DNA of 64,000 nucleotides from an uncultured Spirochaetales bacterium (lineage in GTDB: Bacteria; Spirochaetota; Spirochaetia; Sphaerochaetales; Sphaerochaetaceae). Position numbers and translations under genes: made by a program. Under the pieces are notes generated by a model that saw only the letters and a list, made by a program, of their open reading frames with translations, had not been told where the DNA came from and did not search any database. Of this stretch, positions 10,526 to 15,075 are shown in pieces (within the stretch, counting starts at the first letter, position 1; each line of letters opens with the position of its first letter). The stretch is taken from positions 62,001-126,000 of the forward strand of contig CASEAG010000002.1 of NCBI GenBank assembly GCA_949285785.1, in the 5' to 3' direction.

Positions 10526-10554
10526 GGCAACCGATAGAAGATCCTCTTGTGGAA

Positions 10555-12228
10555 TCACTTCTTCTTGAGGTACTTCACGCTGTCCAGTGCGACGGCGGCG
10601 ATGATGATAGCGCCCTTGAAGACGAACTGGAGGTTCGTATCGATTCCAAGGAACGTCAGGCAGTAGGTGAGGCCGGTGAAGATGATGACGCCGAACATGG
10701 CTCCCGTGATCTTTCCGATACCTCCGTTGAACGAGATTCCTCCGACGACGCAGGCTGCGATGGCATCCGTCTCATAGCCCTGTCCCGTACCGGCCGAGGC
10801 GTTGGCACGGAAGGCCTCGAGGAAGGAGCCGCATCCGTAGAAGATGCCAGCCATGATGAAAACGCCCATGGTGACCTTGAACACCGAGATTCCCGAAACG
10901 GCGGCCGCTTCGCTGTTGCCGCCCACGGCGTACATGTTCTTGCCGAATGTCGTCTTGTTCCAGATGAACCATGCGACGAGACAGGCCAGGATTGCCGGGA
11001 TGATCAGCTTGGGGAATGTGATCAGTTGCCCGTTGACGATTCCCAGCTCCCAGCGTCCTCCGATCAGGTCCTTGATGCCCGAGTCGATCGAGCCTGTAGG
11101 CGTTCCCGAGGTTCCGAAGAACAGCAGGCCGTAGATGATCAGCTGCGTGGACATCGTGGAGATGAACGGGTGTATCTTCAGCTTGGCGGTGAAGACGCCG
11201 GCGAAGCTGGAGAAGGCGACGCAGAAGATTATGGACAGGCACAGTGCGATGACGACCCTGGCACCCATCGGAATGGAGTCGAAGTTCCAGGGCTCCGCAC
11301 CGAAGACGCGCACGATGTTCACGCCCCTGTGCAGCAGGAGTCCTGTCGTGACCGAACCCAGGGCGACCATTCTTCCGACCGAAAGGTCGGTTCCTGCAAG
11401 GAGGATCAGACCTGCGACGCCCAGTGCGTAGAACATCCTGGTCGAGCTCTGCTCGAGAATCGTCAGGATGTTTGGCAGACTGAGCAGCTGGCCTCTTCCC
11501 TGCATCGGGGCGATGATGACGCACACTATGAAGAAAATCAGGACGGCGATGTACAGACCGTTGTTGAGGAAGAACGTCGATGCCTTGAAGCGGTTGACGT
11601 AGTCCTTCCACCTGAGGGTCATGTCCTCCTTGAAGTTCGTCTTACCGTTGCGCAGCGTGCGGTTCGTCTGCACATGGTCGACGTATGCCTGGTTCTTCGT
11701 CGCCTTGGCCCTGTCGACCTGGCTCGTGAAGTGGCTTTTCGCATCGAAGAGGGCGGACTTCTCCTCATAGCGGATCTGCTGGATCTCGTCCTTCTTCTCC
11801 TTGCCGTCCGCGATCGTGATGCCGGCGATCCTCTTCGACGACTCCGCCTTTATGGTCTCGACCTTCGCCTTGTACTCCTCCTTGAGGCGGGCGATGATCG
11901 CATCCTGCTCGGCGTAGACGTTCCTCTCGATCTGTGTGCTGACCGTGTTGACGTAGCTTACGGCCTCCTTCGTGAGAGCGTCGATCTCCGCCTTGTGCCG
12001 GGCGGCATCCTCCTGTGCCACGGCGATCTGCTTTCTGCAGTCCTCGATCATCTTCGCCTTCGCCTCGTCGCTGAGCATCCTGCTCTTCTTCGTGGCGATG
12101 ATCTGCTGCTTGAGATCGTTGACGCGCGTGATCCCCGTGCTTCTGAGATCGGCAAGCTTCGAGATGTATTCCCTTACCTTGAGGTCCTCATCCAGAGCTG
12201 CCGGTACGTTCCTGATGTCAGTTGTCAT
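10555..12228 (-). CDS. mglC: MglC-type sugar ABC permease with a long N-terminal helical extension
   Basis: Inner-membrane permease of the galactose/methyl-galactoside (ribose-type) ABC importer. From about residue 222 to the end it is a normal MglC: the first membrane helix is LYIAVLIFFIVCVIIAP, followed by motifs such as LILLAGTDLSVG, FGKNMYAVGGN and the C-terminal GGIGKITGAMFGV. The first ~215 residues are extra, since E. coli MglC is ~336 residues and this protein is 557. The extension is rich in Lys, Glu, Ala and Gln with almost no Gly or Pro, so it probably forms long helices or a coiled coil facing the cytoplasm. It has no signal peptide. A strong AGGAGG site precedes ATG 12228, and the frame shows no break between extension and permease. 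Last gene of the mgl operon. Confidence 0.92.
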   Translation of the reverse strand: MTTDIRNVPAALDEDLKVREYISKLADLRSTGITRVNDLKQQIIATKKSRMLSDEAKAKMIEDCRKQIAVAQEDAARHKAEIDALTKEAVSYVNTVSTQIERNVYAEQDAIIARLKEEYKAKVETIKAESSKRIAGITIADGKEKKDEIQQIRYEEKSALFDAKSHFTSQVDRAKATKNQAYVDHVQTNRTLRNGKTNFKEDMTLRWKDYVNRFKASTFFLNNGLYIAVLIFFIVCVIIAPMQGRGQLLSLPNILTILEQSSTRMFYALGVAGLILLAGTDLSVGRMVALGSVTTGLLLHRGVNIVRVFGAEPWNFDSIPMGARVVIALCLSIIFCVAFSSFAGVFTAKLKIHPFISTMSTQLIIYGLLFFGTSGTPTGSIDSGIKDLIGGRWELGIVNGQLITFPKLIIPAILACLVAWFIWNKTTFGKNMYAVGGNSEAAAVSGISVFKVTMGVFIMAGIFYGCGSFLEAFRANASAGTGQGYETDAIAACVVGGISFNGGIGKITGAMFGVIIFTGLTYCLTFLGIDTNLQFVFKGAIIIAAVALDSVKYLKKK

Positions 12229-12240
12229 TTTCTCCTCCTC

Positions 12241-13734
12241 TCATAGATACATTGCAGAAAGACGCAGCAGCTCTTCCTGGTCGGTCTTCTTCGTCTCGAC
12301 GATGCCTGCAAGCCTGTGGTTCGACATGACCGCGATGCGGTTGGTGATGCCGAGTATCTCGGGCATCTCCGAACTGACCACGATTATGGTCTTGCCGTTC
12401 TTGGCCATCTCGATGATCAGCTGGTAGATCTCGTACTTCGCACCAACGTCGATGCCCCTTGTGGGCTCGTCCATCAGGAACACGTTCGGCTCCCTCTCCA
12501 TCCACTTGCCGATGATGACCTTCTGCTGGTTTCCTCCGGACAGGGCGGTGATCAGCTCGTCGCAGGAGACGCACTTGGTGTTCATCAGCCTGATCTGTCT
12601 GTTGGCCGCATCCGTCATGAGACGGTTGTTGAGAACGCCATGCGACTTGTAGCTGTTCAGGTTCGTGATGACCGTGTTGAAGCGGATAGTGTCTTTGCCG
12701 AACATGCCGTTGAGCTTGCGTTCCTCCGTGACGAGGGCGAAGTCGTAGTCCATCGCGTCCTTGGATGAGCGGAACCTGAGCGGCTTTCCGTCGAGTATGA
12801 TGCGTCCGGATGCGATCGTGCGGATGCCGAACATGGACTCGAGCAGCTCGCTGCGTCCGGCTCCGACCAGGCCGTAGAGACCGAAGATCTCGCCCTTGCG
12901 CACCGTGAAGGAGATGTCCTCCAGCTTCGGATCGAACTTCGTCGTCAGATGGCTGACCTCCAGGTAGTCCCTGCCGGGCACGTTGTCCACATCCGGGAAC
13001 CTCTTGTCCAGAGAGCGTCCGACCATGGCCGCGATCAGCTCGTTCATGTTCGTCTCGCTGGTCTTCTTGGTCATGATCAGCTTTCCGTCACGCAGGACGG
13101 ATACGTGGTCGCAGATCTCGAACACCTCGTCCATCTTGTGCGAGATGTAGATGAAGGAGACCCCTTTCTCCTTGAGCTCGTTGACGATCGAGAACAGCTT
13201 CTTCACCTCGCGTTCCGTCAAGGAGGAGGTGGGCTCGTCAAGCACTATGATCTTGGCGTTGTAGCTCACCGCCTTGGCGATCTCGACCATCTGGCGCTGG
13301 GATACGGACATCGTCCTCATGATCGTCGTCGGGTTCACATTCATGTTGAGCGAGGCGAAGAGCTTGTTCGCCTCGGTCAGCATCTTGTTCTCGTCGATTA
13401 TTCCGCCCCTGGTGGGGTAGCGCCCGAGAAAGAGGTTGTCGGTGACCGTGCGGTCCAGACACTGGTTCAGCTCCTGGTGGACCATGGCCACTCCGTTCTC
13501 GAGAGCCTCCTTGGGACTGTTGAAGTTTATCTGCCTGCCGTCGAAGATGAACTGCCCCTCGTCCTTGGCGTAGATGCCGAACAGGCATTTCATCATCGTG
13601 GACTTGCCAGCTCCGTTCTCTCCCATGAGCCCAAGCACGGAGCCCTTGTCCAGCGTCAGGTTGATGCCGTCAAGGACCTTGTTCTTCGCGAAGGACTTGG
13701 AGAGGTTCCTGATTTCTAGAATTGTGTTGTCCAT
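12241..13734 (-). CDS. mglA: MglA-type sugar ABC ATPase (two nucleotide-binding domains)
   Basis: 497 residues with tandem ABC domains, as in MglA/RbsA. Domain 1 has Walker A GENGAGKST and Walker B IIVLDEPTSSLTE, with an atypical signature (VSQRQMVEIAKA). Domain 2 has a degenerate Walker A (GLVGAGRSEL), signature LSGGNQQKV and Walker B VFLMDEPTRGIDVGAK. One degenerate Walker A is normal for this family. It powers the MglC permease at the cytoplasmic face. It lies 12 bases before mglC, and a pair of hairpins separates it from mglB. Confidence 0.96.
   Translation of the reverse strand: MDNTILEIRNLSKSFAKNKVLDGINLTLDKGSVLGLMGENGAGKSTMMKCLFGIYAKDEGQFIFDGRQINFNSPKEALENGVAMVHQELNQCLDRTVTDNLFLGRYPTRGGIIDENKMLTEANKLFASLNMNVNPTTIMRTMSVSQRQMVEIAKAVSYNAKIIVLDEPTSSLTEREVKKLFSIVNELKEKGVSFIYISHKMDEVFEICDHVSVLRDGKLIMTKKTSETNMNELIAAMVGRSLDKRFPDVDNVPGRDYLEVSHLTTKFDPKLEDISFTVRKGEIFGLYGLVGAGRSELLESMFGIRTIASGRIILDGKPLRFRSSKDAMDYDFALVTEERKLNGMFGKDTIRFNTVITNLNSYKSHGVLNNRLMTDAANRQIRLMNTKCVSCDELITALSGGNQQKVIIGKWMEREPNVFLMDEPTRGIDVGAKYEIYQLIIEMAKNGKTIIVVSSEMPEILGITNRIAVMSNHRLAGIVETKKTDQEELLRLSAMYL

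Positions 13735-13845: not shown

Positions 13846-15075
<1,230 letters not shown>

Follow-up and report, generated by a model that had tools for sequence, protein, structure and literature searches.

The 64,000-nucleotide stretch of DNA analysed here (the window), from an uncultured Spirochaetales bacterium, encodes an MglC-like sugar permease preceded by an N-terminal extension of about 215 residues, the arm, which is predicted to fold as a rigid bundle of helical hairpins. The adjacent genes encode a two-domain ATPase and a circularly permuted MglB-type binding protein. We tentatively interpret these genes as members of a lineage of CUT2-type (MglBAC) glucose/galactose importers in which a permuted MglB is combined with an arm that may brace or regulate MglA, a reading to which we give somewhat less than an even chance. 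The occurrence of the arm outside spirochaetes and its pairing with the permuted MglB are new relative to the preliminary description of this DNA, which had reported the extension itself.

The permease gene (10555..12228, minus strand, 557 residues) was identified from its open reading frame and its Pfam and NCBIfam matches. Its ATG start codon at 12228 is preceded by a ribosome-binding site graded strong (AGGAGGAG; 12232..12239, minus strand), and relatives have similar sites ahead of this same start. Residues 1-215 (11584..12228, minus strand) hold no known domain and are followed by the permease domain (residues 216-557; 10558..11583, minus strand; BPD_transp_2), the first transmembrane segment (TM1) of which spans residues 216-242. 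Depending on the model, the permease match starts at residues 212-253: the NCBIfam MglC model aligns from 212 and Pfam BPD_transp_2 (PF02653) covers 253-546. The PF02653 score was 108.4 bits (cut-off 26.8); the NCBIfam MglC equivalog score was 283.7 bits, below the curated cut-off of 386, and the protein is therefore called MglC-like rather than a strict MglC. Open frames of unextended relatives are just ~330-370 residues long. The earlier statements that some 215 residues precede the permease domain and that this is unusual for MglC were borne out.

The view that extension and permease form one continuous protein also held: a single open reading frame covers both, the upstream ribosome-binding sites are conserved, and the extension is under purifying selection, with dN/dS values of 0.03-0.24 (0-0.09 in the permease part) in comparisons of the window with relatives from its genus and of these relatives with one another. 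The alignment of the extensions contained no methionine near residues 203-215 conserved across the family. The ribosome-binding site before the upstream ATG, the dN/dS values and the lack of a conserved internal methionine indicate that the extension is real coding sequence, and rule out a chance open frame or a mis-called start. A plus-strand open frame of 565 codons (10549-12246) lies antisense to nearly all of the permease gene; it is interrupted by stops in relatives and was rejected as the true gene, being an artefact of composition.

The composition of residues 1-215 agreed with a charged, K-, A- and E-rich segment almost free of glycine and proline (K 12.1, A 11.6, E 8.4, D 7.9, R 7.4, G 1.9 and P 0.5 %), as described previously; the richness in glutamine did not stand, Q being only moderate at 5.1 %. 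The structure was predicted by running AlphaFold2 on the permease of the window with 46 aligned Bacillota/Actinomycetota relatives. The extension was modelled as helical with high confidence (mean pLDDT 87-98 per ten-residue block over residues 21-190, and 92-98 over most of 20-180). Helices were predicted at residues 5/9-30, 33-48, 54-135, 142-192/194 and 199-213/222, with turns at 49-53 and 136-141, giving about five helical segments arranged as antiparallel hairpins. Confidence was low for the permease part of the full-length model (pLDDT ~48-78), and the model therefore does not fix how the arm is oriented to the membrane.

In this model, helix A (residues 9-48; 12085..12204, minus strand) is kinked at a conserved LRxxG motif (28-32) and is followed by the long helix B (54-135; 11824..12069, minus strand), which is ~12 nm long. 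Helix C (142-192; 11653..11805, minus strand) contains the conserved FDAK motif (161-164), K175 and A181. The juxtamembrane helix D (199-213; 11590..11634, minus strand) is positively charged in both sub-clades by charge counts. Judging from the helix lengths, helix B would be the spine of the arm; helix A would pack along its first half and helix C along its second half, from where C would run back to the membrane. Further conserved positions are KK 47-48, A71, NK 78-79, L85, A89 and Y92 in the first two helices, and LR 192-193, E201, Y210 and F214 towards the permease. The long helical coiled coil on the cytoplasmic side that had been suggested thus survives as a charged helical domain on that side, refined from a simple coiled coil to a predicted bundle of antiparallel hairpins. 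The hydrophobic periods, 3.68 in helix B and 3.62 in helix C, are closer to a hendecad (11/3) than to the 3.5 of a classical heptad. The pattern of insertions and deletions independently backs the model. Among 103 extensions, nearly all indels after residue 20 fall at the predicted tip (137-143), and a Treponema pallidum-like copy (G095; L145 / L035) lacks residues 117-149, making it 33 residues shorter than the window arm by a cut that straddles the tip, which is what an antiparallel hairpin would predict.

Searches of Pfam, NCBIfam and the PDB, by sequence and by fold, returned nothing convincing, consistent with the earlier observation that the extension matches no recognised family. In Pfam no family was consistently shared; the best-supported, DUF7286, matched 7 of 24 members (best E 4.7e-5) through a helical stretch of its 1000-position model. 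The best PDB profile match was an ATP synthase b' helix (E 0.0011), and the fold search of the PDB gave no match to the arm at E<=0.001. Known domains considered as identities for the arm (XPR1/SPX, BAR domains, ribosomal S3 and DUF7286) were rejected as chance-level or generic helical matches. The SPX domain of eukaryotic XPR1 is likewise a cytoplasmic N-terminal helical domain on a transporter, but homology was not supported (Foldseek E 0.06 or worse, TM-score ~0.1). BAR/F-BAR domains are also elongated, three-helix antiparallel and located on the cytoplasmic side of the membrane; their fold matches were insignificant (E 0.38 or worse), and their charge pattern is not conserved in the arm.

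A survey of spirochaete MglC proteins, as the preliminary description had advised, found the extension in some of them and also well beyond the phylum. It was present in 11 of 16 genomes of the window's genus (its own included) and in one of the nine other genomes sampled from the family. The Spirochaetota sample yielded 19 carriers among 247 genomes, three in the window's family and 16 in a Treponemataceae-like family (f18); the latter include a reduced, T. pallidum-sized genome (G095, 1,139,633 bp), which has kept the arm-bearing permease. A Brachyspira-like family (f33) and others have an ordinary MglC of ~340 residues. A plasmid search detected the extension in Treponema saccharophilum and Agathobacter rectalis and not in Fusobacterium, Cetobacterium or Subdoligranulum. 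When the A. rectalis protein was used as a query against one genome per species, the best 80 loci all matched over essentially its full 549 residues, and their hosts included Lachnospiraceae, Oscillospiraceae, Erysipelotrichaceae and Atopobium. An extension profile (A3) matched 9 of 149 genomes of Atopobium's class (Coriobacteriia), and in a broad phylum-level sample it matched 2 of 398; all of these matches lay in frames of 549-617 residues. It also matched 45 of 397 genomes of the Lachnospiraceae, the Anaerobutyricum family, where all frames had 510-576 residues except two that look incomplete (93 and 365 residues). Across the genomes scanned, every arm was found in a permease-length frame or in one that looks incomplete, as at contig ends; neither a free-standing arm nor a fusion to another permease type was seen.

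In a tree of the permease core, the extension-bearing proteins formed one clade (100/100 support), which splits into one half from Spirochaetota and one from Bacillota and Atopobium. This single clade suggests that the extension was gained once. Identity between the window and Treponemataceae proteins is 26-45% in the arm and 74-82% in the permease, so that the arm is the faster-evolving part. The special role in the thin spirochaete cell that had been envisaged for the extension is not upheld, the same extension being common in Lachnospiraceae, Oscillospiraceae and Coriobacteriia. A spirochaete-specific tether, whether related to cell shape or to the cytoplasmic filament, was rejected because arm-bearing members exist in Bacillota and Coriobacteriia.

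The permease gene lies downstream of genes for an MglA-like ATPase with two ABC domains (12241..13734, minus strand, 497 residues; domain matches) and a sugar-binding protein (13846..15060, minus strand, 404 residues), so that the window holds the binding protein, two-domain ATPase and permease of a CUT2 MglBAC operon. The binding protein matches T. pallidum MglB-2 (Tp0684; PDB 5jx2) over its full length (E 7e-183) and is collinear with it over residues 35-404. The N-terminal strands have moved to its C-terminus, as in the permuted MglBs of the proposed 'Type Ic/Cluster Bc'. The marker of this permutation is a C-terminal Peripla_BP_7 (PF18610) segment (residues 325-395; 13876..14088, minus strand; E 9.5e-35), whose homologous segment in two normal MglBs matches weakly from residue 33, near the N-terminus.

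A permuted binding protein adjoined 82 of 82 extended permeases in the operons read, and a normal one adjoined 15 of 15 unextended permeases; these counts refer to permeases with a binding protein in view, which five further extended and one further unextended permease did not have. Profile searches gave the same result: in the 397 Lachnospiraceae genomes, the identical 45 were selected by PF18610 and by the extension profile, with none having either alone, and in Spirochaetota PF18610 was found in 30 of 30 genomes with the extension. A genome of the window's own genus (G006) has an unextended MglC and lacks PF18610. The counts are not independent events, as the arm clade has one origin; most simply, the arm and the permuted MglB would have arisen on one stem and stayed together ever since.

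Several other arrangements of these genes were observed. Two Treponemataceae-family genomes carry orphan permuted binding proteins with no adjoining permease or ATPase (L132:5143-6354 and L133:5252-6490), which are perhaps sensors. A second permuted binding protein lies in tandem upstream of the mgl operon in another genome (G149; L142:8075-9328). In a Brachyspira-like genome (G117; L134:8300-9367), one MglB copy, adjoined by more MglB copies, is split over two neighbouring open frames, which hints at an interruption of the gene. In A. rectalis (L048:7792-13277), the trio is followed by genes for a response regulator, a histidine kinase and two more binding proteins, and most Bacillota loci (many of L052-L131) have a normal galactose-type binding protein ~4.5 kb downstream; the genes downstream of Bacillota trios are possibly a sugar-sensing module.

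The arm probably lies on the cytoplasmic side. The residues preceding TM1 were more positive than those following it in 78 of 79 proteins, TM1 is homologous to that of ordinary MglC, and the N-terminus of ordinary MglC is taken as cytoplasmic; by the charge rule, flank charges and homology together place the arm in the cytoplasm. MglB and MglA are the sole proteins seen encoded beside the arm in all lineages. Of these two, MglB is outside and only MglA is cytoplasmic, which makes MglA the natural candidate for the partner of the arm. In the mechanism that we favour, which takes up the MglA docking suggested earlier, the importer lineage would be marked by two co-inherited traits, a Tp0684-type MglB and the cytoplasmic arm. 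If the permease is a dimer, as presumed, the complex would have two arms, one per MglC; in each, helix B would pack against A on one half and C on the other, and the positive juxtamembrane helix would join TM1. The arms would reach down alongside MglA and either brace it or set its ATPase activity, so that the importer subunits would be held together and docking of the permuted MglB would be matched by the ATPase. We infer the contact with MglA, its bracing or regulatory role and the exact helix packing. A dedicated MglA insertion was looked for in arm-bearing systems and none was found, ~25 clade-specific residues being scattered, so that no docking site is visible. The faster evolution of the arm also weighs against this mechanism. 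A stronger version, in which the importers form a mechanistically distinct class with coupled parts and the arm gates or senses the ATPase in concert with a permuted MglB that docks from a shifted tether point, seems rather unlikely to us.

The main rival makes the arm a platform on which some other soluble protein of the cytoplasm docks, such as a sugar kinase or a regulator, which would allow sugar to be handed on or uptake to be throttled. The long arm offers much exposed surface, and many conserved charged residues (R29, K47, K79, D162, K164, K175, R193, E201) go beyond what a bare packing core needs. The second, normal binding protein downstream of many Bacillota loci, and the two-component system adjoining the A. 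rectalis locus, which links uptake to sensing there, point the same way. However, no other gene was found beside the trio in all lineages, and the partner would have to be encoded elsewhere in the genome and be conserved across three phyla; we regard a docking platform as possible, if somewhat unlikely. A clustering function, with arms linking neighbouring transporters or lying BAR-like along the membrane, would suit the elongated three-helix architecture and the juxtamembrane helix, positive in both groups, and several F-BAR/BAR domains were among the best, though insignificant, fold matches. The best E in that fold search was 0.18, and the arm itself does not retain its net positive charge in Bacillota, where helix segments average -0.9 to +0.1, which leaves clustering decidedly unlikely.

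Because the arm clade is monophyletic, its pairing with the permuted MglB may be plain co-inheritance. Taken further, the arm would be a lineage relic with a role in folding or stability only, and the pairing would reflect one ancestral event and operon transfer without functional coupling. The single gain, the faster evolution of the arm and its shortening in the T. pallidum-sized reduced genome are compatible with a relic. Against this, no loss of the arm was seen within the sampled arm-bearing clade, even in the reduced genome, and the arm is under purifying selection with indels nearly absent outside the tip; a relic is accordingly quite unlikely. An extracytoplasmic extension, its N-tail translocated like that of E. 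coli ProW, could meet the permuted MglB directly and so account for the pairing with a periplasmic or surface protein. The charge distribution about TM1 points to N-inside, ordinary MglC can be aligned to the TM1 region, and the extension contains no hydrophobic signal-like or membrane-crossing stretch (maximum Kyte-Doolittle mean 0.32), making this location very improbable.

The arm-bearing importer can be compared with known systems. E. coli-type MglBAC (CUT2) shares with the window the B-A-C gene order, the two-domain ATPase and the BPD_transp_2 permease, but has no arm and a binding protein of normal topology; unlike the E. coli type, the window proteins score below the NCBIfam equivalog cut-offs for both MglC (see above) and MglA (678 against 828). 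A further close system is T. pallidum MglB-2 (Tp0684, with permease Tp0686), which has the same circularly permuted binding protein, and the T. pallidum-sized genome G095 has the gene order of the window. Tp0684 is known to be circularly permuted and to bind D-glucose, permuted binding proteins and Tp0686 homologues have a common distribution in treponemes and Gram-positives, and the system is a candidate for the main glucose uptake route of the syphilis spirochaete (PMC4990184). That MglB is permuted, and that the permuted form extends to Gram-positives along with Tp0686-like permeases, is thus already published; the main text of that paper names tp0686 once and does not mention a permease extension. 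In the open-access literature we found no description of the arm, its predicted structure or its strict pairing with the permutation, and we regard the arm-bearing system as a variant, not described before, within an importer type that is already known.

Collectively, the permuted T. pallidum MglB, reported as an oddity of the binding protein alone, is one half of a two-part signature. The other half is an undescribed 215-residue cytoplasmic domain of the permease, present in every case checked. Together they mark an importer lineage across gut Bacillota, Coriobacteriia and treponemes, and the version found in gut commensals may provide a means of learning how the arm works.
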